Virus record (IMG/VR): IMGVR_UViG_3300044732_001907
Location: 1 to 24,458 of that record
Strand: one strand, 5' to 3'
DNA length: 24,458 bases
Source: a virus
Each line of letters opens with the position of its first letter. Position 1 is the first letter of the stretch. The notes under the pieces were generated by a model. That model was not told the origin of the DNA. It made no database searches and saw nothing but the letters and a program-made list of their open reading frames with translations. The translations under genes were made by a program, and so were the position numbers. Positions 3,421-24,307 of this stretch are shown here, in pieces.

Positions 3421-3624
3421 ATGGCAATTTTAAGAGGGCAGCAACACCCGTCAGCAAAACTGACAGAGGAACAAGTTTTAATCATCAGAGACCTATGGAG
3501 AATGGGTCATCGTAATATTAAAGTTATTGCCCAAAACAATAAGGTATCACCATCAAATGTATTGAAGATAATTCAACGTAAAACTTGGACTCATTTAAAT
3601 CATTTTTGGAGTGGTAGCTTATGA
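3421..3624 (+). CDS. Small helix-turn-helix protein of the homing-endonuclease DNA-binding type
   Basis: The 67-residue product has the pattern AKLTEEQVLIIRDLW, then IKVIAQNNKVSPSNVLKII, then KTWTHL. This is the helix-turn-helix module found at one end of many phage HNH homing endonucleases (AKLTEEDV..IR...iA..f.VS...I..I....W.h), here free-standing without any nuclease domain. It could be a regulator or a leftover of a homing endonuclease. Its stop codon overlaps the start of the first Mom-like gene (ATGA at 3621-3624), so the two are probably translationally coupled, which is reminiscent of phage Mu, where mom overlaps a small upstream gene (com). The product is not recognisably Com: it has no zinc-binding cysteines. 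Confidence 0.65.
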   Translation: MAILRGQQHPSAKLTEEQVLIIRDLWRMGHRNIKVIAQNNKVSPSNVLKIIQRKTWTHLNHFWSGSL

Positions 3625-4394
3625 AAGTAGAAGGTAAACAATATTGTGATATCTCTAAGTTTTCTATTAGAGAGATTAATAAGAACATAGCAAAGGATAT
3701 CATTGTCAATAACCATTATAGTGGGATATGGACGAAGGTATCCTATGCTATTGGATTATTTTATATATCCGATGATGAGCATAATTTTTTTAGTGGTGTA
3801 AACGAACAATTAGTTGGAGTTGCCTGTTATGGTGACCCGGTTGGTAGAAATGCCGGCGCATCAATCTCCGAATTACTTCCTAGAGATGGTGTGTTAGAAT
3901 TGACAAGACTATTCGTATTCGATGGATATGGTAGTAACATTGAGAGTTGGTTCGTTGGACAAACTTTCGAATGGTTGAGAACTAATGTACCTCGTATTAA
4001 AGCACTAATATCATATTCAGACCCAAACGCTGGGCATTTAGGAACGGTATATCAAGCTACCAATTGGATATATCAGGGTAACAAAATCAGATGGTCAGAT
4101 AGTTGGAGTTTCAAATGGAGTGAAGATGATGAATGGCATCATTCTCGGACATCTTATGTGAAGTACGGAACGAATGACCCGAAGATAATTCAGACAATGG
4201 TTACAAGCCCATTCTGGATTAAAAGAGAACCCCGTAAGCATCGATATGTGTATATTCTAACCAAAGATAAAAAGGAGCGTAAAGCCCTCTTAAAATCGCT
4301 TAAACATGAGGTATTCCCCTATCCAAAGGTGGAGTTGGATATTATCGATGAAGTCCATAAAATGGACCCGATAGATTTGGTAGTTTCAGATTAA
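3621..4394 (+). CDS. Mom-like DNA modification protein, copy 1
   Basis: The 257-residue protein matches the Mom family, GNAT-fold enzymes named for phage Mu Mom, which converts adenine in phage DNA to a carbamoylmethyl/acetamido derivative that blocks restriction. Visible conserved parts are HYSG at 32-35, ELTRL at 93-97, the GYGSNIES segment near 102-109, SYSD at 131-134, and GHLGTVYQATNW at 138-149, followed by HHSRTS and a basic KHRYVYIL segment. The start is fixed by the identical MKVEGK opening of copy 2. It overlaps the helix-turn-helix gene by 4 nt. A hand-counted 60-base sample (3841-3900) is 26/60 G+C against 21/60 in the matching part of copy 2, so it looks less AT-rich. The family is clear; the base or product modified is unknown. 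Confidence 0.85.
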   Translation: MKVEGKQYCDISKFSIREINKNIAKDIIVNNHYSGIWTKVSYAIGLFYISDDEHNFFSGVNEQLVGVACYGDPVGRNAGASISELLPRDGVLELTRLFVFDGYGSNIESWFVGQTFEWLRTNVPRIKALISYSDPNAGHLGTVYQATNWIYQGNKIRWSDSWSFKWSEDDEWHHSRTSYVKYGTNDPKIIQTMVTSPFWIKREPRKHRYVYILTKDKKERKALLKSLKHEVFPYPKVELDIIDEVHKMDPIDLVVSD

Positions 4395-4414: not shown

Positions 4415-4669
4415 ATGGCAAAAGTAGAACCAAGCGCTAAGGATAAACCACGTAAATTTGAACACATCTATAAAGATGATGATGGGTGTGAATCAATTTG
4501 GAAATACGATTTGGATAAATTCCCAAATGGACCTATATCAGTAGAAAATAAATATCCTGCTGGGTATGTGAAAGAATTGAAACAAAGACAAAAATTAGCA
4601 AAGGCTGAGAGAAGTTTATCTATTTTAGAAAAAGCAAAACAAGCAAAAAAGAATGAAGGTAGAAGGTAA
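4415..4669 (+). CDS. Small charged protein of unknown function between the Mom-like genes
   Basis: I do not recognise this 84-residue protein. The N-terminal two thirds contain an acidic and aromatic stretch (HIYKDDDGCESIWKYDLD) and a PAGYVKELKQRQ segment; the C-terminal third is a lysine-rich helix likely to be coiled or nucleic-acid binding (EKAKQAKKNEGRR). There is no signal peptide or membrane segment. It is the first gene after promoter P1 and its end overlaps the start of Mom-like copy 2 by 17 nt in another frame, which suggests translational coupling. By position it could be an accessory or control protein for the modification enzyme, but nothing in the sequence shows that. Confidence 0.65.
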   Translation: MAKVEPSAKDKPRKFEHIYKDDDGCESIWKYDLDKFPNGPISVENKYPAGYVKELKQRQKLAKAERSLSILEKAKQAKKNEGRR

Positions 4670-5453
4670 AAATTATTGTGATACATCCAAAGTATATGTA
4701 GCACCAATAGCAAAGAGTATCGCTAAAGATATTATTGTTAAGAAACACTATACTCACGCTTGGACAGCTTGTAGATATGCAATTGGAATATATTACAAAT
4801 CAGAAGATGCTAATACCTTTGATGGTGATAAACTTATAGGTTGTTTAATCTATGGTTTTCCTGTTGGAGCAAAAGCATCGACTTCTATTTGTGAAGGATT
4901 AACCAAAGATAACATTTTAGAATTAACTCGTTTGTATTGTGATGATGGTTATGGTTCTAATATTGAATCATTTGCATTAGGACAATCTTTCAAATGGTTA
5001 AAAGAGCACGATAAAAATATTAAAGTATTACTTTCATACGCCGATAACGGACAAGCTCACTTAGGAGGAATATATCAGGCTACCAATTGGATTTATCAGG
5101 GGTTATCTACGGATATTGCATTGATGCCAAATTGGGGTATATCATTACACAAAGACCCGTATCAATGGATTCATAGTAGAACTGTATTCTCAATGTGGGG
5201 TAGTGGTAATTTAGCACACTTACAAATGGAAATCGGTAAGCAAGGATATAAAGAGTTTTGGAGAAGGGAAGAACCACCAAAGCATAGATATGTTCAAATA
5301 CTTGCGCAAGATAAAAAAGAAAAGAAAGATTTGATGAAACGATTGAAGCATGAGATTAGACCTTATCCAAAAGATACGGCTAGTTACAATACGGAAGTAG
5401 TTCATCACTTAACAACATATGAAGTACCTGAAGGAACTGAAAACTTTTGGTAA
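4653..5453 (+). CDS. Mom-like DNA modification protein, copy 2
   Basis: The 266-residue protein is a diverged paralogue of the product at 3621-4394. Both open with MKVEGK and share IAKDIIV..HY, LELTRL, DGYGSNIES, LSYAD or ISYSD, YQATNWIYQG, HSRT and KHRY..IL..DKKE. Family residues are visible as H32, R93 in ELTRL (90-94), D131 in SYAD (128-131), and the H136-LGGIYQATNW segment. The loops differ, for example around residues 52-60 and after residue 150 where copy 2 has an insertion, so the two may differ in sequence target or partner. The start at 4653 lies inside the upstream gene but is supported by the matching N-terminus. P2 begins in its last codons. Confidence 0.85.
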   Translation: MKVEGKNYCDTSKVYVAPIAKSIAKDIIVKKHYTHAWTACRYAIGIYYKSEDANTFDGDKLIGCLIYGFPVGAKASTSICEGLTKDNILELTRLYCDDGYGSNIESFALGQSFKWLKEHDKNIKVLLSYADNGQAHLGGIYQATNWIYQGLSTDIALMPNWGISLHKDPYQWIHSRTVFSMWGSGNLAHLQMEIGKQGYKEFWRREEPPKHRYVQILAQDKKEKKDLMKRLKHEIRPYPKDTASYNTEVVHHLTTYEVPEGTENFW

Positions 5454-5544: not shown

Positions 5545-7296
5545 ATGACAAATTCAGAAAAAAAAGAAAGACTTACACGTCTTATTCAAATGACAGCCCC
5601 ATCTTGGCTAACAAAAGAAAAGTATGAAAATTTTCTTAGAGAAAGAGAAACTTTAAAGAAAGCGTTTTCAATTGAAACTCATTTAGGCCCAATTCTTGCG
5701 GCAAACCAACTCAATTGGAGAGATGCTAAGTTAAATCCTGCTTGGCAATCTTGGGAAGTTGCATTATCTCCTAAATTTTTAGTAGATAAATATCTAGCAG
5801 ATGAAGTAATATCAGACCCATCATCCGGACAAGACCCAAAGACATTTTCAAAAGAAAATGAAAAAACAGCTAGTGTTCATGCTGGCAGACATTGGGGGTA
5901 TAAAAAGATTTTTACACAGCCCGGTGTAAATTTTATAGAAACGCCATCCGAATGGTTACAATCTGGAACTTTTAATTTAATTATAATAGATGGTAGACTT
6001 GTAGTAGTTCCCATTAATGTTGAGCATAGAAATTGGGGATTGATTGGATTTCCATTGAACTTAGTTCCTTTGGATTCTAATAAAAAACTTTGGTACTACA
6101 ATCCAAAATTGCCAGAATTATATGATGATGAACTTGGAAAAATGGTAAATGGTATTAGAGTTGATGGACTTTATTTATCGGATATAGTTAGTAAGTGTAG
6201 AGAGCTTGGAGCTGATATAACAGCCGATGATATAAAAAATAGATTTTATCAAAATAAATTTACATTTCAATTTTTACCTTTCTTTTCTCAAAAAGAAACT
6301 GAAATATTTTTTAAAGAAATTAATAGTTCAAGTGCAAAAACAGAACCACAATTATTTCATGCAGAACCACACCCAGTACAATATTGGATAAAGAAATTTT
6401 CATCCCCAAAGGTAGTTGAATTTAAACCATCGAATCAACAATACCATCCTTTATTTGAAAATATGAGTATGACCTCTAAAGTAAAGTTAGAGGCTATGAT
6501 GATTTCACATGAAATATTACAATGGAATCTAAATGATAGAAAATTCGTACCACACTCAGATAAAGCATTGATTAATTTATTTAGTACAAATAGTAATAAA
6601 GTTGATGAAGATATTAAACAACAAACCATAGATGATATGGATTGGTTATATAGTATATTATCAAAATCAGACCCTATGTTACAACCAACTAGACCTTTGG
6701 TTCAACACTTTTTAAAAATAAAAGATTATTTGGAAGATGATGGTAAAATTATAGCAGACCCATATACATTCATAAATGAATGGAATGATTGGTTTGCGGC
6801 AGCTTCATCAGAAAATGGAAACTTAACAAAATTTGCATTAGCTTGGCGTAAATCTACTGCAGAGGCTTATAAAGAAGCTTGGAAAATTATTAAAGATGGA
6901 TTTCTTAAAAAACTAAATATAGGCATTGTTGATAAATCACCATCTGTTCCAAGAATTTTTGATAGAGATGTAATTCAAGATTCTTTGAAATTAAATAAAG
7001 GACTTGATGTTGATGCTAGTTTTCTTGAAAGTAGAGCAGTGGGTGGGCATATAATTTCTGATTTTGAATTAATTAGAATGACTAAAGAGGAAAGAGATAT
7101 TGCTTTTCAGAATGAAAAATTAGGAGATGTTTTTGATTTTAATAAAAATTGTAGAGCAATGAGTTCTTATCACAACCAAAGAATGGGTGTTTTGAGATTG
7201 AGTGAGTATCTTTCACTTATGCACGATGAAAATTCAGTAAGAACAGCTAGGATTCGAAAATATAAAGAATTGAAAGATAAACAAATATTAGTATAA
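5545..7296 (+). CDS. Large protein of unknown function, possibly ParB/DUF262-like with an HNH-like C-terminus
   Basis: I do not firmly recognise this 583-residue protein. Near residues 145-172 a hydrophobic strand IIIDG is followed by INVEHRNWGLIGFPLN, recalling the DGQHR/DUF262 signature (DGqHRl..l..F), with E160-H161-R162 in place of QHR. Residues 250-275 (ETEIFFKEINSSSAKT, then QLFHAE) fit the 'iN..s...T..e' element of the same group. The C-terminus has GGHII (500-504) and SSYHNQRMG (540-548), which could be a degenerate HNH site, though no CxxC zinc pair is present. DUF262 proteins include restriction enzymes against modified DNA, so a defence or counter-defence role beside the Mom-like genes is conceivable but inferred. 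First gene after P2; its TAA overlaps the next ATG by one base. Confidence 0.4.
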   Translation: MTNSEKKERLTRLIQMTAPSWLTKEKYENFLRERETLKKAFSIETHLGPILAANQLNWRDAKLNPAWQSWEVALSPKFLVDKYLADEVISDPSSGQDPKTFSKENEKTASVHAGRHWGYKKIFTQPGVNFIETPSEWLQSGTFNLIIIDGRLVVVPINVEHRNWGLIGFPLNLVPLDSNKKLWYYNPKLPELYDDELGKMVNGIRVDGLYLSDIVSKCRELGADITADDIKNRFYQNKFTFQFLPFFSQKETEIFFKEINSSSAKTEPQLFHAEPHPVQYWIKKFSSPKVVEFKPSNQQYHPLFENMSMTSKVKLEAMMISHEILQWNLNDRKFVPHSDKALINLFSTNSNKVDEDIKQQTIDDMDWLYSILSKSDPMLQPTRPLVQHFLKIKDYLEDDGKIIADPYTFINEWNDWFAAASSENGNLTKFALAWRKSTAEAYKEAWKIIKDGFLKKLNIGIVDKSPSVPRIFDRDVIQDSLKLNKGLDVDASFLESRAVGGHIISDFELIRMTKEERDIAFQNEKLGDVFDFNKNCRAMSSYHNQRMGVLRLSEYLSLMHDENSVRTARIRKYKELKDKQILV

Positions 7297-11009: not shown

Positions 11010-11705
11010 ATGAACAAAAGCAAATTCGATGGTTTCGTAAATCGTTACAACTTAGGTGGTGAGATTGAATCCGTTATGGTAAAATCCGATGATACAAATT
11101 TATCGGTAAGAATGATTTCAGATGACAAAACCTTATTAGGTGATGTTACAGTAGTAGGCGGTGAATTTCCAAATGGTGAGTTTGGTATTTACACTACATC
11201 TCAATTGAAAGGATTATTGAGTGTATTAGATGAATCAATCGCAGTAGAAGAAGTTACTGGAGCATTGAAATTCTCTGATAAGAAAACAAAGGTACAATAT
11301 ATGTTAGCAGCACCATCGGTGATTCCTGCAGTACCTGATTTAAAAGCATTACCTCCATTTGATACGGAAGTAAGTTTAGATGATGACTTTGTAAATAAGT
11401 TCATTAAATCAAAAGGTGTATTATCTGATTCAGATACATTCACATTTATGGTTAAAGGTGGTAAGGCTGAAATTATCTTAGGATATTCTTCAATCAACTC
11501 AAACCGAATTTCAATTGCAGTAGAAGCAACTGCTAAAGAAGATATCGAACCAATCGCTTTCTCAGCAAAATATTTGAAAGCTATCTTAATGGCTAACAAA
11601 GGTTCTAAATCATCTTCATTAAAAATCTCATCTAAGGGATTATCGCATGTAGCATTCGTAGATGGTGATTACACTTCAAACTATTACTTAGTAGAAATTA
11701 AATAA
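11010..11705 (+). CDS. Sliding clamp, T4 gp45-like
   Basis: The 231-residue product is close in length to T4 gp45 (228), the trimeric ring that tethers the polymerase to DNA. It has no enzymatic motifs; the call rests on overall pattern: alternating strands, the IYTTSQLKGLLSVLD segment near 60-74, a second-domain SDTFTFMVKGGKAEI segment, and the terminal HVAFVDGDYTSNYYLVEI, which matches the closing strands of clamp proteins of this group. Context is strong: it lies between the polymerase and two clamp-loader subunits. In T4 the clamp also activates late transcription, which may matter here since more than one promoter class appears in the window. Confidence 0.8.
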   Translation: MNKSKFDGFVNRYNLGGEIESVMVKSDDTNLSVRMISDDKTLLGDVTVVGGEFPNGEFGIYTTSQLKGLLSVLDESIAVEEVTGALKFSDKKTKVQYMLAAPSVIPAVPDLKALPPFDTEVSLDDDFVNKFIKSKGVLSDSDTFTFMVKGGKAEIILGYSSINSNRISIAVEATAKEDIEPIAFSAKYLKAILMANKGSKSSSLKISSKGLSHVAFVDGDYTSNYYLVEIK

Positions 11706-11710
11706 TTATT

Positions 11711-12922
11711 ATGAGCTTTTGGGATACTGAACCACAAAAACCTGTCTTTGACTTTGAATCTGAAAAATCAAAGTTAATAGAAAATATGGATTACCTTATG
11801 ACAATGTCTGTACAAGAACAAACTTTGTATAAGAAGTGGGTAGAATTGCAAGAACCTACAATGATTCAAGCAAAAGCCCAAATAGCATCATACTATGATT
11901 CTCAATGGAAACCAACTGATATCAACAATAAGGAGCTAACGATAAAAGAAATTGAATCGTTAGACCCTTACGTTGAGATTGTGGAAGACCCGAAAGAATC
12001 TACTAAGTGGGCAGCGGTAAGACGTATGATTCACACAATGGATTTTACAGCAAACCCTGGCCGTAATGTGAAGATTAATGTAAAGGATAGAGTAAGTGGA
12101 AAACTATTAGGACAGATTTCATTAGCATCCGATGTAACCGCTATGGGAGTTAGAGATAACTTTATTGGTTGGACTAAGGATAATAAGTTTGTTGATGGTA
12201 AGTTAAACAATACTACTATTGCCTCTACTATTGTATGTACTCAGCCATTAGGATACAATTTCTTAGGTGGTAAGTTAATCGCTATGATGACAACTACGCC
12301 GGAGGTTAGAGCATATTGGAAAGAGAAGTATAAGAACGTATTGATTGCAGTGGGTACAACATCTTTGTATGGTATTCATTCACAATATAATGGTATCCCT
12401 TTATTTAAAACATTAGGTGAATCAGCTGGTAAGATTAGTTTAAAGCCGGATGATAAATTCTATGACCCGTGGCATCAATGGATTAAAGAAAACCATGCGG
12501 AGTGGTATTCTGAAAACATTACCGAAGAAAGAGCTCGTAATGGCGCTAATATGGGTTACGAAAGAAACGGACCTGTTAGTGGTATCAAACAAAAGATATT
12601 AGGTAAGATATTCAAAGAGTGTGGTATTAAGGCAACTGAATATCATCACGGATTTAAAAGAGGTGTGTACTTCGCTATGATGTATGAGAATGGAAATGAA
12701 TTCCTTCGTAACGAAATCACCGAAGATAAACTAATCATCAAAGATAAGTTTAAGCAAGGTACTGAATACATCAACAAATGGTGGAAGAAACACGCAATAA
12801 GTAGATATACAAAACTACATGATGAAGGAAGAATTAAACCAGAACACTTATTCTACATAGATGCTATTGGAATTAGTTGGGAAGAAATGAAAGAAAAATA
12901 CCTATCAGAAGTAGGAAGATAA
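11711..12922 (+). CDS. DruA-like (DUF4338) family protein in the replisome operon
   Basis: The 403-residue protein resembles the DUF4338/DruA family. The central part runs G-ISLASDV..., RDNFIGW, then LNNTTIASTIVCTQPLGYNFLGGKLIAM, W..KY, a strand with GTTSLYG, and FKTLGESAGK. This follows the order of the DruA signature (iGWd...l..nsRFLilP...n.aShvL...W...Y...P.l.eTF......G..Y.aanw..lG.T.Grg). DruA is named after the Druantia defence system; its catalytic role is unsettled, and phage-encoded homologues are known only as uncharacterised proteins. The last third (residues about 270-400) is basic and aromatic and may bind DNA. It lies 5 nt after the clamp gene. Family call moderate, function unknown. 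Confidence 0.5.
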   Translation: MSFWDTEPQKPVFDFESEKSKLIENMDYLMTMSVQEQTLYKKWVELQEPTMIQAKAQIASYYDSQWKPTDINNKELTIKEIESLDPYVEIVEDPKESTKWAAVRRMIHTMDFTANPGRNVKINVKDRVSGKLLGQISLASDVTAMGVRDNFIGWTKDNKFVDGKLNNTTIASTIVCTQPLGYNFLGGKLIAMMTTTPEVRAYWKEKYKNVLIAVGTTSLYGIHSQYNGIPLFKTLGESAGKISLKPDDKFYDPWHQWIKENHAEWYSENITEERARNGANMGYERNGPVSGIKQKILGKIFKECGIKATEYHHGFKRGVYFAMMYENGNEFLRNEITEDKLIIKDKFKQGTEYINKWWKKHAISRYTKLHDEGRIKPEHLFYIDAIGISWEEMKEKYLSEVGR

Positions 12923-12939
12923 TATAAAAAACAAAAATT

Positions 12940-13359
12940 ATGGCAAAGGATAAAAAAACAAAAATTGAAAAGGTAGAAACCGCAACAAAAGAAATAGTAC
13001 CTGAATTAGGACTAGCATCAATAAATTTAGAAAAATACGATGATTGTGAGTGGTGTTTTCAATTTGATGAAGATGAACCACAAATATTTGCTTGGATGGA
13101 TGATGAGTTAAATAAAGAAGAAGACCCAAAAGTAATGTTTAGTATTACCAATGTAAAGGATTCTTATATTAACTTTACACATCAAAATGGAAAAGTATTT
13201 AAATTATTTGCTAGAGAAATTTCAGAGCAAGGTAAGGAATTAAGAGAAAAGCAAAGAGTTATGATAGCTCAAATGAAAGAAGATGAAAGAGCTTATCAAG
13301 AAAGATTACAAGAAATTCAAAAAGAAAACGAAAATGCAAGTGAAAATAAAAAGGATTAA
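12940..13359 (+). CDS. Acidic protein of unknown function
   Basis: I do not recognise this 139-residue protein. It begins with a lysine-rich segment, has an acidic aromatic middle (WCFQFDEDEPQIFAWMDDEL), a probable beta region (VMFSITNVKDSYINFTHQNGKVFKLF), and ends in a long charged helix that is likely a coiled coil (from about residue 95 to the end). No membrane segment or enzyme motif is visible. It sits between the DruA-like gene and dUTPase in the clamp operon, and its last 26 bases overlap the start of the dUTPase gene in another frame. Confidence 0.65.
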   Translation: MAKDKKTKIEKVETATKEIVPELGLASINLEKYDDCEWCFQFDEDEPQIFAWMDDELNKEEDPKVMFSITNVKDSYINFTHQNGKVFKLFAREISEQGKELREKQRVMIAQMKEDERAYQERLQEIQKENENASENKKD

Positions 13360-13768
13360 TCCTAATGCGGTAATTCCAACATACGCTAAAGAAGGTGATG
13401 CTGGTATGGATTTAGTAGCAACATCAATTATATCAGAAACAACTACTGATGTAACCTATGGTACGGGATTGGCTATGGAAATTAGAGATGGGTTTGTGGG
13501 ATTGGTATTCCCTCGTTCATCAATAAGAAAATACGATTTGGCATTAACAAATTCTGTAGGTGTAATTGATAGTGGGTATAGAGGAGAAATTCAAGCCACA
13601 TTCAAAAAAACTAATTGGTTAAAAGGCAATGAATCTGAAAAATATCAAATAGGTGATAGAATTGCACAAATTATGATTATACCGCATCCACAAATTGAGT
13701 TTGATGAAGTGGACGAGTTATCGGATACTCAAAGAGGTGATGGTGGATTTGGTTCAACTGGAAAATAA
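13334..13768 (+). CDS. dut: dUTP diphosphatase (trimeric dUTPase)
   Basis: The enzyme hydrolyses dUTP to dUMP and pyrophosphate, which keeps uracil out of DNA and feeds thymidylate synthesis. All five motifs of the homotrimeric family are present in 144 residues: GDAGMDL (21-27), PRSS (60-63), GVIDSGYRGEI (76-86), GDRIAQIMI (107-115) and RGDGGFGSTG (134-143). The ATG at 13334 is preferred over one at 13283, because the family N-terminus begins just before KIKRINP; the longer form would add 17 lysine-rich residues. It overlaps both neighbours or abuts them, so it belongs to the clamp operon. Confidence 0.95.
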   Translation: MQVKIKRINPNAVIPTYAKEGDAGMDLVATSIISETTTDVTYGTGLAMEIRDGFVGLVFPRSSIRKYDLALTNSVGVIDSGYRGEIQATFKKTNWLKGNESEKYQIGDRIAQIMIIPHPQIEFDEVDELSDTQRGDGGFGSTGK

Positions 13769-13778
13769 AAAATACAAT

Positions 13779-14720
13779 ATGTTTATAGAACAAACGGAAG
13801 AAAAGGTAAATAATAATTTATGGGTAGAGAAATATCGCCCATCAAAGCTTGTTGATTATGTAGGTAACGAACATCTAAAATCAAAAGTAGAAGGTTATTT
13901 AGAAACAGGTGAAATTCCACATTTACTTTTGTACGGAAAAGCCGGCACTGGTAAAACTACATTAGCAAAGTTAATCGTAAAATCAATTGAATGTGATTAT
14001 ATGATTATCAACGCATCTTCGGAGAATAATGTGGATACCGTAAGAAATAAAGTAACTAACTTTGCATCTTCAATGGGATTCAAACCATTTAAGATTATTA
14101 TATTGGATGAGTTTGATTATATGACTCACAACGCACAAGCTATATTAAGAAACTTAATGGAAACATTTTCAGCACATTGCCGTTTCATATTAACTTGTAA
14201 CTATGTTGAGAAAGTAATTGACCCAATTCAAAGTAGATGTCAATCATTTCAAATTGTACCTCCAACTAAAAAAGACGTTGCTATGCAAATTAGTAAAATC
14301 TTAAAAAATGAAGAAATTGAATTTGAAGTTAAGGATTTAGTTCCAATTATTGATGCAGCTTATCCTGATATTCGTAAGGTTATTAATACTTGCCAATTGA
14401 ATTCAATCAAAGGTAAGTTGAAAGTGGATGTACAAAATCTATTAGAGAATGATTATAGAAATAAAATTATTGACATCCTATCTTCAAAAGATGATAAGAG
14501 AAATAAGTATATGAAAGTAAGACAGGCTCTTATTGATTCCAAAGTTACGGACTTTACTGATTTATATACAATGTTATATGATAAGGTAGATGAGTATGGT
14601 GGAGAGAATACGGCAAACATCATTCTTTTATTAGGAGATGGTGTAAGTAAATCAGCAGTAGCAATTGATAAAGAAATTATAGCAGCAGCTACATTAATTC
14701 AAATTTTAAATATTATATAA
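13779..14720 (+). CDS. Clamp loader large subunit, T4 gp44/RFC-like AAA+ ATPase
   Basis: The 314-residue product is an AAA+ ATPase that opens and loads the sliding clamp at primer ends. It has the RFC opening motif WVEKYRP (15-21), Walker A GKAGTGKT (53-60), Walker B IIILDE (106-111), sensor 1 LTCN, and the SRC motif (152-154) that supplies the arginine finger to the neighbouring subunit. Its length matches T4 gp44 (319). The ATG at 13779 places the family start correctly; an upstream ATG at 13695 would lie inside dUTPase and add 28 unrelated residues. Its stop overlaps the next start by one base. Confidence 0.93.
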   Translation: MFIEQTEEKVNNNLWVEKYRPSKLVDYVGNEHLKSKVEGYLETGEIPHLLLYGKAGTGKTTLAKLIVKSIECDYMIINASSENNVDTVRNKVTNFASSMGFKPFKIIILDEFDYMTHNAQAILRNLMETFSAHCRFILTCNYVEKVIDPIQSRCQSFQIVPPTKKDVAMQISKILKNEEIEFEVKDLVPIIDAAYPDIRKVINTCQLNSIKGKLKVDVQNLLENDYRNKIIDILSSKDDKRNKYMKVRQALIDSKVTDFTDLYTMLYDKVDEYGGENTANIILLLGDGVSKSAVAIDKEIIAAATLIQILNII

Positions 14721-14986
14721 TGGCAAACATTTTAGGAGCAGGTGGGCAACCAATCGGAGGACAAGAAGAAAAAGCAGTTTCATTAGAAAAAACCGAAGCA
14801 ATCGGATGTAAGAAATGTGGTGGTGAGATTTTCGTACAAGGTTTTGGATTCCGTAGAATTTCAAAGTTATTAACTGGTAAACCAAAAGATGAAGTACTGC
14901 CGGTTGAACTATTCCTTTGTGGAGATTGTGGTGAAGTACTTAATGAATTATTACCTCCGGGTTTAAAAGTAGAAGAAGAAGCATAA
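14720..14986 (+). CDS. Small zinc-ribbon protein between the clamp loader genes
   Basis: The 88-residue protein has C30-x2-C33 (CKKCGG) and C67-x2-C70 (CGDCGE), spaced as in a zinc ribbon, after a glycine-rich start and before an acidic tail. I do not recognise the family. It overlaps the clamp-loader stop by one base and ends one base before the next start, so it is made together with the two loader subunits. Zinc ribbons of this size serve in nucleic-acid binding or in transcription complexes; whether it joins the replisome or clamp-dependent transcription cannot be told from sequence. Confidence 0.7.
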   Translation: MANILGAGGQPIGGQEEKAVSLEKTEAIGCKKCGGEIFVQGFGFRRISKLLTGKPKDEVLPVELFLCGDCGEVLNELLPPGLKVEEEA

Positions 14987-14987
14987 T

Positions 14988-15437
14988 ATGGCTAAAACAT
15001 TATTCGACCATCTAAACGCAATTACGGATAAGAAAGACCCAAAGTATTGGGACACGCTTGATGAAAGTGATAAAAAGACATGGAGTAACTATATGATACT
15101 CCGTTTTCTTTCTATGAAACCTGAGTGGATAGAACTAATTGCAGATATACAACCTTACATACAGGAGGCACCTCCCAAAGCGATGTATTTATGTTTGATA
15201 GGATTGATTCCAAAGACGAGAGCATTCTTAAAATATATGAAACCCGCTTCATCTGAAAAGTATGAAGATTGGATTATTGAATTGGTAGCAAGACAATATG
15301 AAGTATCTTTAACTGAAGCAGAGGATTATCTTAAAATACTTTACGAAACCACCAGCGGTAAGATGCATATTAAGGAAATCGCTGAGAACTATGGTACTGA
15401 CCCTAAACAAATTACTAAATTAAAACTCAAAGTTTAA
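14988..15437 (+). CDS. Clamp loader small subunit, T4 gp62-like
   Basis: The 149-residue protein starts with LFDHLNAIT and contains SNYMILRFLSMKPEWIELI followed by a proline break and a short hydrophobic LIGLIPKTRAFLKYMK. This is the pattern of the gp62 family in T4-like phages (F.vnr.LS..pe......, then liPk....kymk), although it is shorter than T4 gp62 (187). gp62 is the non-ATPase partner of gp44 in the 4:1 loader. The C-terminal part (IAENYGTDPKQITKLKLKV) could form a small helical DNA-binding unit. Position after gp44-like and zinc-ribbon genes supports the call. It is the last gene of the P3 operon; P4 starts on the base after its stop. Confidence 0.7.
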   Translation: MAKTLFDHLNAITDKKDPKYWDTLDESDKKTWSNYMILRFLSMKPEWIELIADIQPYIQEAPPKAMYLCLIGLIPKTRAFLKYMKPASSEKYEDWIIELVARQYEVSLTEAEDYLKILYETTSGKMHIKEIAENYGTDPKQITKLKLKV

Positions 15438-15486: not shown

Positions 15487-16359
15487 ATGGCTAAAGTATC
15501 ATTTTCTCAATATAGTATGTGGAGTTCATGCCCACATCAATACAAATTAAATTACATAGATAAGTTAGGTGAAAGTTCATCTAACGTTCATACAATTTTT
15601 GGAACTGCAATGCACGAAACTATCCAACATTACCTATCGGTTATGTATGGTGTTTCTAAGAAGCAAGCAGATGAAATTAACAAAGATAAACTCTTATTGG
15701 AAAGAATGAGAGAAGCTTATAAATCTGAAGCTGAAAAGATGAGTGAGGGAACTCCTTGTACTCAAATCGAATTAGAAGAATTTTATGGTGATGGCAGACG
15801 TATTCTACAATGGTTAGATAAGCATATGCATAAATTCTATTCAAAGAGTGGATTTGAATTGGTAGGTATTGAAATTCCATTAAACGCAACTATTAAAGAA
15901 GGTGTACACTTTATTGGATTTATCGATATTGTGATGAGAGATTTGGCATCTAATGAAATTATTATCATTGACCTTAAGACATCTACTATGGGATGGAATC
16001 AGTATCAAAAAGCTGATAAGATGAAGAACTCTCAAATCCTATTATACAAAAAGTATTATTCGGAGTTATTTAATATTCCATTACAAAAGATTAAAGTGGA
16101 GTATCAGATACTTCGTAGGAAATTACCCGAAGATTCGGCATTTCCAGTACCACATGTATCTAAGCATATTCCAGCACATGGTTCTCCATCTGTTAAAAAA
16201 GTATATGATGAATTTATGGAATTTATCAATACTGTATTTGAAGATGGTGGTGCGTTTAAAAATATAGAATTTCCAAAAGTGCCAGGCGCAGCAAAAAAGA
16301 ATTGTAAGTTTTGTGAATTTGGCAATAGGGGAATATGTGATAAAAAGGCTACAAAATAA
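15487..16359 (+). CDS. Cas4/RecB-like PD-(D/E)XK nuclease with probable 4Fe-4S cluster
   Basis: The 290-residue protein opens with the family-typical FSQYSMWSSCPHQYKLNYI (C15), then GTAMHETIQ (H43), a core of GFIDIV (D147) and IIIIDLKTST (D162, K164), and a QILLY segment (Q183, Y187). Near the C-terminus C273, C276 and C284 (CKFCEFGNRGIC) combine with C15 to form the four-cysteine set that holds an iron-sulfur cluster in Cas4 and AddB nucleases. All catalytic residues are present. Such phage enzymes act in recombination or DNA end processing; no Cas gene or CRISPR array lies nearby. It is expressed alone from P4, with the ribbon-helix-helix gene following. Confidence 0.88.
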   Translation: MAKVSFSQYSMWSSCPHQYKLNYIDKLGESSSNVHTIFGTAMHETIQHYLSVMYGVSKKQADEINKDKLLLERMREAYKSEAEKMSEGTPCTQIELEEFYGDGRRILQWLDKHMHKFYSKSGFELVGIEIPLNATIKEGVHFIGFIDIVMRDLASNEIIIIDLKTSTMGWNQYQKADKMKNSQILLYKKYYSELFNIPLQKIKVEYQILRRKLPEDSAFPVPHVSKHIPAHGSPSVKKVYDEFMEFINTVFEDGGAFKNIEFPKVPGAAKKNCKFCEFGNRGICDKKATK

Positions 16360-16383: not shown

Positions 16384-16407
16384 TATATTTATATATACAA
16401 ATATATT
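16384..16407 (+). promoter_or_regulatory. 24-bp AT-rich dyad element, copy 1, before the ribbon-helix-helix gene
   Basis: A 24-bp sequence here is identical to 23606-23629. It has arms TATATTT (16384-16390) and AAATATA (16399-16405) around 8 nt, so it is an imperfect palindrome. It ends 4 nt before the ATG at 16412. Possible operator for the protein encoded next, or a second promoter class containing TATATTTA. Confidence 0.5.
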
Positions 16408-16411
16408 TATA

Positions 16412-16612
16412 ATGAATCAAGACAACACAAAACTAACAACTGTGAAAATACTGAAAGATGTATATTCATCATTCAAAAAGGTTTCTTTCGATTCTGACGT
16501 AACACTTCAAAAGCTGGTAAATAGAACAGTGGAAAGATATGTTAAGGATGATGAGTTTAGAAAAGAAATGAATGAATATTTACAACTTCAAATTTCAGGT
16601 TCACAATTTTAA
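16412..16612 (+). CDS. Ribbon-helix-helix (Arc/CopG-like) DNA-binding protein
   Basis: The 66-residue protein has the proportions of a ribbon-helix-helix regulator: a short strand TTVKILKD (9-16), a helix YSSFKKVSFDS, a turn, then a helix TLQKLVNRTVERYVKD (31-46), and a short C-terminal helix. Proteins of this type bind palindromic or tandem operators as dimers and often repress their own gene. The identical 24-bp dyad just upstream and before the gene at 23678 would be natural targets. The ATG at 16412 is chosen because an earlier in-frame start at 16313 would lie inside the nuclease gene and run through the AT-rich element. Fold call is by pattern only. Confidence 0.65.
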   Translation: MNQDNTKLTTVKILKDVYSSFKKVSFDSDVTLQKLVNRTVERYVKDDEFRKEMNEYLQLQISGSQF

Positions 16613-19774: not shown

Positions 19775-19801
19775 TTCTTCTTTTTACCTTTTATTTATAT
19801 T

Positions 19802-19831
19802 TACTTGTATAACCAACGAAATATACAAGTA
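19802..19831 (+). promoter_or_regulatory. Perfect 10-bp inverted repeat before the tail fibre gene
   Basis: TACTTGTATA (19802-19811) and TATACAAGTA (19822-19831) are exact reverse complements with a 10-nt spacer; the repeat ends 9 nt before the ATG at 19841. TATATTTA at 19796-19803 and ATATACAAGTATA here resemble the two halves of the 24-bp dyad element. It could be an operator, or an mRNA hairpin covering the translation start region. Confidence 0.55.
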
Positions 19832-19840
19832 TAATATAAA

Positions 19841-21982
19841 ATGGCATTAATTTTAAGAACAGTCAAAAATTCTCCACTCACAGCAGCTGAGATGGATGGC
19901 AACCTAACCTATTTAGAAGGTGAAATTCAAGCCGGAACTTCTGGAACATCAGGATTAACTGGTTCAACGGGTACTGCTGGCACAGCAGGTACATCGGGAA
20001 CTTCAGGTTCATCTGGAGCAACAGGTTCATCTGGAGCAACTGGTTCATCGGGAAGTGCAGGTACAAGCGGTACATCTGGGGCTAGTGGTGATAGATTTGC
20101 AACAAATTCAATTACATCGGAATCACTAACAACTGGAGCTAAAACATTTGCAATAGCTTCTGGATTACAATGGCAATCTGGACAGGGAATTAGAATAGCT
20201 TATGATGGCAATAACTATATGGAGGGTACAGTTACTTCATATTCCACAACTATTTTGGTTGTAAATATAACATCCGCAGTAGTAGTTGGTTCTACTGGAC
20301 CATTTGCAACTTGGACAATAAATACATTAGGGGCAGCAGGACAAGCTGGTACAAATGGTACTAGTGGGTCATCTGGTTCGTCTGGTAAAGATGGTACAAA
20401 TGGTACTGCTGGTAAAGATGGTTCAAATGGTACTGCTGGTAAAGATGGTTCAAGTGGTACAAGCGGCACCGATGGTTCTGCTGGTACGGGGGGTACTTCA
20501 GGAACTTCTGGAAAGGATGGTACATTCTTTGGTTCATCTGGAACATCTGGGGTTAATGGAAGTAGTGGTACAAGCGGTTCTGGTGGTACAAGTGGTGCTC
20601 AAGGTACGCCGGGCACAAATGGTACATCGGGAACTCGTGGCACAGCTGGTACGGGAGGTACATCGGGCGTTAATGGTACATCTGGCACAAGTGGAATAAG
20701 TGGTTCATCGGGAATAACCGGAACTTCTGGTACATCGGGCATAAGTGGAACGGCAGGTAGTGGTGGTACGTCTGGAACTGGGGCTAATTTAATTACACAA
20801 CAGGGTGCTGGTGGTACTCCAATAACTGGAGTTTCTAAAGTTATATTTAATGGCGCTGGTGTTACTAATAATGGTAGTGGTATAGTTACTGTTGATATAA
20901 ACGCAGCAGGTGGTAGTTTAACTTTCGTTACTGGTTCTACTACAATTACAAGTGTTAGTAGTGTAACATTAGCATCTTCTATTAATGTTCAAAATAACGG
21001 AGCAGGTTCAATTACACTTTCTTCATTAGGTAGTGCTGGTGGTGGGACTGGAAGTAGTGGTACATCAGGAACTTCAGGTTCTTCTGGTAAAGATGGTACT
21101 ATGGGTACATCAGGTTCAACTGGTAAAGATGGTACTGGTGGAACAAGCGGTACTTCATCGATTGGAACATCTGGAACATCGGGTTCAAATGGTTCTCCTG
21201 GTACATCTGGTCTAAATGGTTCGTATGGTTCTTCTGGTACAAGCGGACAAGATGGTAGTGGTGGTACAAGTGGTCTTGGAGTTACTTTGAGTTTAAATGA
21301 TGCAGGAAATACTACTGTAAGTGATGTAAGAGCAGTAACATTTGGAAGTGGATTCACACTTACATCGGCTGGAACATATTCTGCTTCAATAACTGTAAGT
21401 GGATTTGGTGGAACGGCAGTACCTGGTACTGTATCATCATCCGCACAAATTGTAGCATTCGATACATTTGCAGTAACAACTGGTTCAAATAGATTTCTTA
21501 GTACACAAGCTATTAATGGTAACGTTAATATAACCGGTTCATTGAGAATGACTGGATTATTTACAGCATCATTAACCACCGATTATGTTTGGGTTGGTAA
21601 TGCTGATGGTGTTAATGAGATGGTTCATAAAAATACATTAACCTCAAGTGCTGGTGGTGGAACTGGAACTGGATTTCCATTTGTTGGACAAGCTGATGTT
21701 AGTGGTAGTTTAATATTGACGGGTTCACTTATTGTGACTGGTTCAATAACTGCATCAGCATTATACACAAATAACGCAGGTATACCTGAAATAGCATCAC
21801 CATCAACTTTAAGATTAACCGCAGTTAATACGGTGCATGTAACAACATCATCTTTAAGATTAGCATCTTTTAGTGATGCACAAACAAGTAGTTTAACGGC
21901 TACAAACGGAGATTTAATTTATAATACTACAAGCAACAAATTCTGGGGATATGCTGGTGGAGCTTGGGTAGCATTACATTAA
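19841..21982 (+). CDS. Collagen-like tail fibre protein
   Basis: The 713-residue protein has a short N-terminal motif typical of phage fibres (LRTVKNSPLTAAEMDGNLTYLE) and three Gly-x-y blocks of GTSGTSG/GSSG/GKDG type at about residues 32-83, 164-314 and 401-479. Small non-repetitive modules separate them (84-163, 315-400), and a 235-residue C-terminal region ends in FWGYAGGAWVALH, a common end of phage fibre tips. Gly-x-y repeats form trimeric rods in collagen-like phage proteins. Proline is scarce; Ser and Thr fill the x and y positions, which could also be glycosylation sites for the nearby transferases. It lies 7 nt upstream of the protease gene, with which it is probably co-transcribed. 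Confidence 0.85.
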   Translation: MALILRTVKNSPLTAAEMDGNLTYLEGEIQAGTSGTSGLTGSTGTAGTAGTSGTSGSSGATGSSGATGSSGSAGTSGTSGASGDRFATNSITSESLTTGAKTFAIASGLQWQSGQGIRIAYDGNNYMEGTVTSYSTTILVVNITSAVVVGSTGPFATWTINTLGAAGQAGTNGTSGSSGSSGKDGTNGTAGKDGSNGTAGKDGSSGTSGTDGSAGTGGTSGTSGKDGTFFGSSGTSGVNGSSGTSGSGGTSGAQGTPGTNGTSGTRGTAGTGGTSGVNGTSGTSGISGSSGITGTSGTSGISGTAGSGGTSGTGANLITQQGAGGTPITGVSKVIFNGAGVTNNGSGIVTVDINAAGGSLTFVTGSTTITSVSSVTLASSINVQNNGAGSITLSSLGSAGGGTGSSGTSGTSGSSGKDGTMGTSGSTGKDGTGGTSGTSSIGTSGTSGSNGSPGTSGLNGSYGSSGTSGQDGSGGTSGLGVTLSLNDAGNTTVSDVRAVTFGSGFTLTSAGTYSASITVSGFGGTAVPGTVSSSAQIVAFDTFAVTTGSNRFLSTQAINGNVNITGSLRMTGLFTASLTTDYVWVGNADGVNEMVHKNTLTSSAGGGTGTGFPFVGQADVSGSLILTGSLIVTGSITASALYTNNAGIPEIASPSTLRLTAVNTVHVTTSSLRLASFSDAQTSSLTATNGDLIYNTTSNKFWGYAGGAWVALH
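20384..20464 (+). repeat. Three 27-bp tandem repeats within the fibre gene
   Basis: Units at 20384-20410, 20411-20437 and 20438-20464 each start GGTAAAGATGGT and encode GKDG(T/S)(N/S)GT(A/S). They differ at only a few bases, which is less than expected if selected at protein level only, so they are probably recent duplications. Such tandem units can change number by slippage or recombination and alter rod length. Confidence 0.8.
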
Positions 21983-23605: not shown

Positions 23606-23629
23606 TATATTTATATATACAAATATATT
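23606..23629 (+). promoter_or_regulatory. 24-bp AT-rich dyad element, copy 2, between protease and GT2 genes
   Basis: Identical over 24 bp to 16384-16407, with arms TATATTT (23606-23612) and AAATATA (23621-23627). It starts 19 nt after the protease stop and lies just upstream of promoter P5, whose -33 box begins at 23642. That position suits an operator or an upstream second promoter. Confidence 0.5.
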
Positions 23630-23641
23630 ATCAGAGATAGA

Positions 23642-23673
23642 TTTGGTAATGTAGAAAAAAAGTGTTATATTTG
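23642..23673 (+). promoter_or_regulatory. Promoter P5 with -33/-7 geometry but a different spacer
   Basis: TTTG (23642-23645), a 20-nt spacer and TATATTTG (23666-23673). The spacer begins GTAAT like P2 and P4 but then has an A-run in place of the TCRGG and TTTCG blocks. If the -7 box is at -12 to -5, transcription starts at 23678, which is the A of the ATG. Confidence 0.65.
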
Positions 23674-23677
23674 TATT

Positions 23678-24307
23678 ATGATAAATGTTACATACGCTAT
23701 TACGGTTTGCAACGAGCTTACCGAAATTACTCAACTTATTAATTTCTTACATCCAAGACTAAAATCAGAAGATGAGATATTAATACAATACGATACGGAT
23801 TCCGCAACTACTCAAGTTAAGGATTACCTTACTATCTTAACTCAAATGCATGAAAACATTAGAGTTATCTCATTCCCTTTAAACAAAGATTTTGCATCTT
23901 ACAAAAACAATTTAAAAAATCATGCCAATGGTATGTTTATTTTTCAAATTGATGCAGATGAAATGCCATCGGAATATTTGGTTGAAAATTTGGAGTTCTT
24001 TTTAGAATCTAATAAAGAAGTAGACCTTTTCTTTATACCTCGCATTAATACTGTTGAAGGATTAACTGATGAACACATTAAAAAGTGGGGATGGAAAGTT
24101 AATGAATTGGGATGGATAAACTTTCCTGATTATCAAACACGTCTTTACAGAAGAACATCGGAAATTGAATGGCAAGGTAAGGTACATGAAAGAATAATTG
24201 GATATAATACATTATCCGTATTACCGCAAGATGAAGAATATTGTTTGTATCATCATAAGCAAATAGCAAGACAAGAAAAGCAAAACGAATTGTATGATAC
24301 CATCTAA
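23678..24307 (+). CDS. GT2-family glycosyltransferase (GT-A fold)
   Basis: The 209-residue product opens with VTYAITVCNELTEI, the usual first strand and loop of GT2 enzymes, and has a D-x-D metal and nucleotide-sugar site in IDADEMPSEY (D92, D94). WQGKVHE (165-171) is a conserved late motif of small single-domain GT2 proteins of the lipopolysaccharide-core biosynthesis type. The ATG at 23678 is chosen because the family start coincides with it and P5 ends 4 nt before; a TTG at 23603 would add 25 residues encoded by the promoter and dyad DNA. It overlaps the next gene by 14 nt. Acceptor unknown. Confidence 0.88.
   Translation: MINVTYAITVCNELTEITQLINFLHPRLKSEDEILIQYDTDSATTQVKDYLTILTQMHENIRVISFPLNKDFASYKNNLKNHANGMFIFQIDADEMPSEYLVENLEFFLESNKEVDLFFIPRINTVEGLTDEHIKKWGWKVNELGWINFPDYQTRLYRRTSEIEWQGKVHERIIGYNTLSVLPQDEEYCLYHHKQIARQEKQNELYDTI

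Follow-up and report, generated by a model that had tools for sequence, protein, structure and literature searches.

The 24-bp element located in front of a gene for a small ribbon-helix-helix (RHH)-like protein is a real and conserved feature of the analyzed viral DNA (24,458 nucleotides, here called the window). It is a dyad which occurs at two sites and overlaps a late promoter. Most probably, as judged by sequence comparison, this dyad is an operator placed on the late promoter and bound by the RHH protein, which would thereby repress its own gene in the late phase and share control of a glycosyltransferase (GT2) gene.

Occurrence and conservation of the element

The element TATATTTATATATACAAATATATT is present in exact form at positions 16384-16407 and 23606-23629, both times on the plus strand, and the two copies are 7,222 bp apart. 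The initial annotation, which had described one 24-bp sequence with palindromic arms 4 nt before the RHH gene and again at 23606 before the GT2 gene, proved correct. The end of the first copy is separated by 4 nt from the ATG at 16412, and the second core is located 50 nt before the GT2 ATG (23678), past the end of a subtilase gene. Compared with its own reverse complement, the 22-bp core TATATTTATATATACAAATATA is equal at 20 of 22 positions. This core defines the dyad, a putative operator, at 16384..16405 (plus strand) before the RHH gene.

The element is not mere noise of AT-rich DNA. Within the window, no third copy was found at up to three mismatches, and none of 100 dinucleotide shuffles of the window contained a match to the 24-mer. 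For 16 long relatives (45-274 kb), a search at up to three mismatches mostly yielded one to three near-exact copies per record, meaning copies within two mismatches. The reversed pattern, used as a control with three mismatches in the same records, gave 0-1 matches. An exact scan detected the core in more than 100 IMG/VR contigs. The AT-richness of the window would favor a chance likeness, but the shuffles, the low copy numbers and the preservation of the element across divergent phages leave no room for this explanation. In the 274-kb record G001, a third exact copy is found at 243355, distant from the RHH/GT2 region.

Close relatives of the 66-residue RHH-like protein are encoded on 284 stretches. 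The core TATA(C/T)TTATATATACAAATATA in front of the RHH gene is kept in 41 of 42 distinct upstream sequences with single-base variants only, the sole exception being L187. Flanks and spacing around this core are variable, with 4-18 nt to the ATG. Four subfamilies (L012, L114, L017 and L091), whose proteins are 42-47% identical to that of the window, show an identical core, and it is almost unchanged before the RHH genes of five subfamilies in all. At more diverged RHH genes (L326-L329, L331, L334) both arms are changed together, giving GTATATGT-N8-ACATATAC, and most of the L326-L334 set has the dyad form GTATATGTATAGATAAACATATAC. Upstream of the RHH homologue of Immutovirus (Flavobacterium phage immuto) lies TATATTTATATATAAATATA, a perfect palindrome with changed arms. 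The relative G013 has a degenerate site at its own RHH gene (TATATATATATACATATATA) and a perfect element at a tail-region gene, which speaks against the operator reading.

Altogether, 107 distinct exact elements were collected, 60 of them before RHH genes, 25 before a gene with the N-terminus MTSKEF, 20 before GT2 and 2 before other genes, of which one is portal-like. At the MTSKEF gene the dyad is located 5-8 nt before the ATG. Several contigs with this type of element show no RHH gene; these contigs are fragments. The M(T/N)SKEF-LWLKGF gene carries a perfect dyad, usually behind a terminator-like hairpin (L006, L007, L008, L063, L082, L198 and others), and in G013 adjoins the genes for tail tube and sheath. 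In L040 an exact element at 6120 was observed 7 nt before the ATG of a portal-like gene (MALDRSLFPRLKRLF).

The putative RHH-like regulator of 66 residues is encoded at 16412..16612 on the plus strand, based on its open reading frame, weak family matches and conserved motifs. The gene upstream of it encodes a PD-(D/E)XK nuclease (15487..16359, plus strand; Pfam PF12705, E 5e-22), and the same order is found in Immutovirus. The protein is weakly matched by the Arc-like repressors of PHROG 582 (E 8.8e-4). Single homologues show weak matches to the Pfam families Omega_Repress (0.005), RHH_10 (0.024) and RHH_4 (0.084). By hhalign it is in register with omega over 36 columns (TVRVRADL vs TVKILKDV), in a weak alignment. 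Among 13 homologues L8, T9, V11, K12 and an LQKL-R motif are invariant and position 10 is always S or T; the SGS tail is invariant in the homologues except that of immuto. The stretch LT(S/T)VK is where the DNA contact of RHH proteins is expected, and it may make this contact here. AlphaFold2 monomers, predicted with 7 and 12 sequences, reached a low pLDDT of 67-68; they show a long N-terminal helix followed by two more (32-45 and 47-64), and no strand. The strands of RHH proteins form only in the dimer. A Foldseek search gave no match, a sequence search of the PDB no significant relative and a direct query against annotated phages no match; the Immutovirus match was obtained with a diverged homologue as query. 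We regard an RHH fold of the 66-residue protein as likely.

The probable late promoter box and the right half of the dyad

An unbiased word count in the 188-kb relative G003 yielded several promoter-like word families. One of them, TATATTTAT, occurs almost only in intergenic regions and on the coding strand. In six genomes, the regions before genes contain 74 sense and 3 antisense copies of TATA(C/T)TTAT, with about 5.6 expected from a first-order model. Where a function is recognisable, the genes behind this box encode, among others, proteins of tail sheath, tail tube, fibre and baseplate and one S-adenosylmethionine decarboxylase; many others are unknowns. An alignment of 92 boxes contains no strongly conserved element further upstream and no conserved -35 element. 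Because of the sense-strand intergenic enrichment, the tail genes located behind it and the lack of an upstream element, the left half of the dyad, TATA(C/T)TTATA, is likely the late promoter box of these phages, shared with many other genes and missed in the initial annotation. At the RHH gene it corresponds to TATATTTATA, the first 8-10 bp of the dyad on the plus strand. A gp55-like late sigma factor is not among the matches listed for 48 ORFs of G003 (25/36 families).

Two further promoter classes are present in G003. The host-type Bacteroidota promoter reads T(T/A)GG-N19-21-TAnnTTTG and precedes nucleases and a polymerase domain. The consensus TAnnTTTG is given for Flavobacterium (PMC10309648). 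A second phage class (L338-L347) consists of AAAGCTTG-N-TACCTTTA, about 20 nt apart, before many small genes (e.g., at 136419, 158718, 159148, 166868 and 167142), and is absent from the window. ORFs of 140-240 aa in G003 match ferredoxin-dependent bilin reductase, heme oxygenase and ferrochelatase, and the genome with these matches has Bacteroidota-type promoters. Such genes are better known from cyanophages. The DNA polymerase of the window is closest to that of Microcystis phage Mel-JY01 (52%). Neighbouring paralogous genes are located at 3621-4394 and 4653-5453 of the window (MKVEGKQYCD... and MKVEGKNYCD...).

The right half of the dyad is much more restricted than the late box. Among 101 late-box sites it is present at 11-12 of 12 positions only for the RHH, GT2 and MTSKEF genes; one further gene has 10 of 12, and all remaining late boxes have at most 9. 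The element might be just a late promoter in a strong form, with an extended box and a favoured initial transcribed sequence, to which the RHH protein does not bind; the RHH gene would then be merely one late gene among others. This would agree with the left half being the late box and with the element also preceding non-RHH genes (GT2, MTSKEF and one portal gene). However, the right half is missing from about 90 further late boxes, among them the boxes of the tail sheath and tail tube genes, and it hardly varies in front of RHH genes. In addition, the dyad is kept at the diverged RHH genes despite the change in both arms, and we consider a pure promoter variant unlikely. Binding of the dyad by the adjacent RHH-like protein is most likely from the pattern of conservation, and the dyad would work as an operator at the RHH gene's own promoter. 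An antisense host-type promoter was also considered, since the right half reads TATATTTG on the minus strand, but it was rejected as a matching -33 box is found in only one of 107 sites.

The GT2 gene and the fibre leader

The GT2 glycosyltransferase gene (23678..24307, plus strand) encodes 209 aa (Pfam PF00535, E 2e-7; PHROG 37334). The second copy of dyad and late box is located before it at 23606..23627 on the plus strand, and this arrangement is seen in each of the 20 distinct GT2 contexts. Between dyad and gene, a Bacteroidota-type promoter, TTTGG-N19-TATATTTG, is present at 23642..23673 (plus strand) and starts 14 nt after the dyad. The offset from dyad to host-type promoter is 13-15 nt in all of these 20 contexts, and the sequence in between varies. 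The gene order nuclease-RHH-GT-GT-hypothetical-GT2 is also found in immuto, and no dyad was found before the GT2 gene of this phage.

Because the spacing is fixed, a role of the RHH protein as activator or switch at GT2 is possible. The protein could bind the dyad but act as an activator or early-to-late switch. This would concern GT2 in particular, where the dyad centre would be near -58 of the host-type promoter. At the RHH and MTSKEF genes, however, the dyad covers the sole recognisable promoter, with 4-18 nt to the ATG. This arrangement fits better with repression, and the Immutovirus GT2 gene has no dyad. We consider activation or such a switch quite improbable. A related proposal combines both effects: the RHH protein would be a late-phase switch that shuts the late promoters with a dyad and acts from a fixed distance upstream on the host-type promoter of GT2. 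We regard this as unlikely. If true, one protein would time a glycosyltransferase across the infection cycle in a large, uncultured group of T4-like phages.

A single regulator had been proposed for its own operon, the glycosyltransferase operon and a fibre-protease operon. The first two parts are in line with the ties of the dyad to RHH genes (60 contexts) and to GT2 (20/20); the comparison lends no support to the third. In front of the fibre gene lies a late box of the usual kind (TATATTTA, 19796..19803, plus strand), and the right half of the dyad is missing there. This late box is kept before the fibre genes of 18 of 19 sequences and replaced by AATATTTA in L147. The half-site reported before the fibre gene does exist, as AATATACAAGTATA at 19820, which deviates from the 14-bp half-site by 2 mismatches, but it belongs to a different inverted repeat at 19804..19829 (plus strand; arms 19804-19812 and 19821-19829). 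It was discarded as an operator because it forms the 3' arm of a covarying stem-loop that immediately follows the fibre late box. The half-site gives no support for control of the fibre-protease operon by the RHH protein.

In this stem-loop, 6 of 9 pairs show changes on both sides among the 16 aligned leaders in which it is conserved, a small alignment of related sequences, and the covariation score was matched by none of 500 shuffles. Folded alone, it reaches -5.4 kcal/mol (z -2.85). The alignment also contains G-U cells, which suggest a stem-loop of RNA. In positions 19796-19843 of the window and in 15 related leaders, the stem-loop lies close to or at the 5' end of the mRNA for the collagen-like fibre, where it is possibly a leader hairpin. 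Scanning the window for Rfam families and tRNAs gave no match.

Proposed mechanism and comparison with known systems

Since the late box and the probable start site of the RHH gene both lie under the dyad, negative autoregulation in the late phase is the natural reading. Late transcription in these T4-like phages, whose hosts are of the Bacteroidota type, would start at the left half, TATA(C/T)TTATA. Addition of the inverted right half (ACAAATATA) to the late box would create a 22-bp dyad such as those to which RHH proteins bind as pairs of dimers. Once made, the RHH protein would sit on the dyad and cover both the late box and the start site. Late transcription of its own gene would be shut off in this way. 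The same shut-off would take place at GT2, but the host-type promoter that follows there after 13-15 nt may escape it or be subject to modulation.

The element could also act as an RNA hairpin which steers translation of both mRNAs. It is near the ATG at the RHH gene, and the L326-type sequence could fold well (-8.0 kcal/mol, z -3.2). The element of the window folds poorly, however (z -1.0); in the common TATACTT form one arm pair is lost, and the fold has -0.8 kcal/mol. The GT2 copy, 50 nt upstream of its gene, is outside any transcript from the host-type promoter, and the late start site would fall inside the element. As the common form loses the arm pair and the folds are weak, the hairpin is unlikely, and we give it hardly any weight against the operator.

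The favored operator reading would supply a testable regulator-operator pair and a late promoter motif. The phages concerned are uncultured and widespread, with the exact core in more than 100 contigs, and their transcription control appears undescribed. The reading also illustrates a route to a dyad operator, by which one inverted half is added to a standard late promoter. Flavobacterium phage immuto is a cultured relative with an RHH gene and a version of the site, which makes bench testing possible. A literature search yielded no account of this RHH family, its operator or the late promoter motif, and all three appear to be undescribed in the literature searched.

The late promoters of T4, which depend on gp55, gp33 and gp45, are similar in that a short AT-only box without a conserved -35 region is located before tail genes. 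Clamp and clamp-loader genes are present here as well (window 11010-15437). The late box of T4 is TATAAATA, whereas the box found here is TATA(C/T)TTATA on the sense strand, and gp55 is not among the matches listed here. An autoregulating phage RHH repressor with a dyad operator is a known kind, of which Arc is the model. Arc of phage P22 and the Arc-like repressors of PHROG 582 are small phage RHH-like proteins, as is putatively the case here, and the operator of Arc is located over the promoter of its own transcript. In contrast to Arc, the present system occurs in T4-like phages of Bacteroidota-type hosts, its putative operator lies across a late promoter, there is a further site at a glycosyltransferase gene, the dyad is AT-rich and the protein has a conserved SGS tail. 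Autoregulation is also characteristic of plasmid RHH regulators like the Omega repressor of pSM19035 and the CopG/ParG-type proteins, and omega shows the weak in-register alignment with the present protein. The omega operator consists of heptad repeats; the system described here differs by its single 22-bp dyad and by the lack of partition or copy-control genes nearby.
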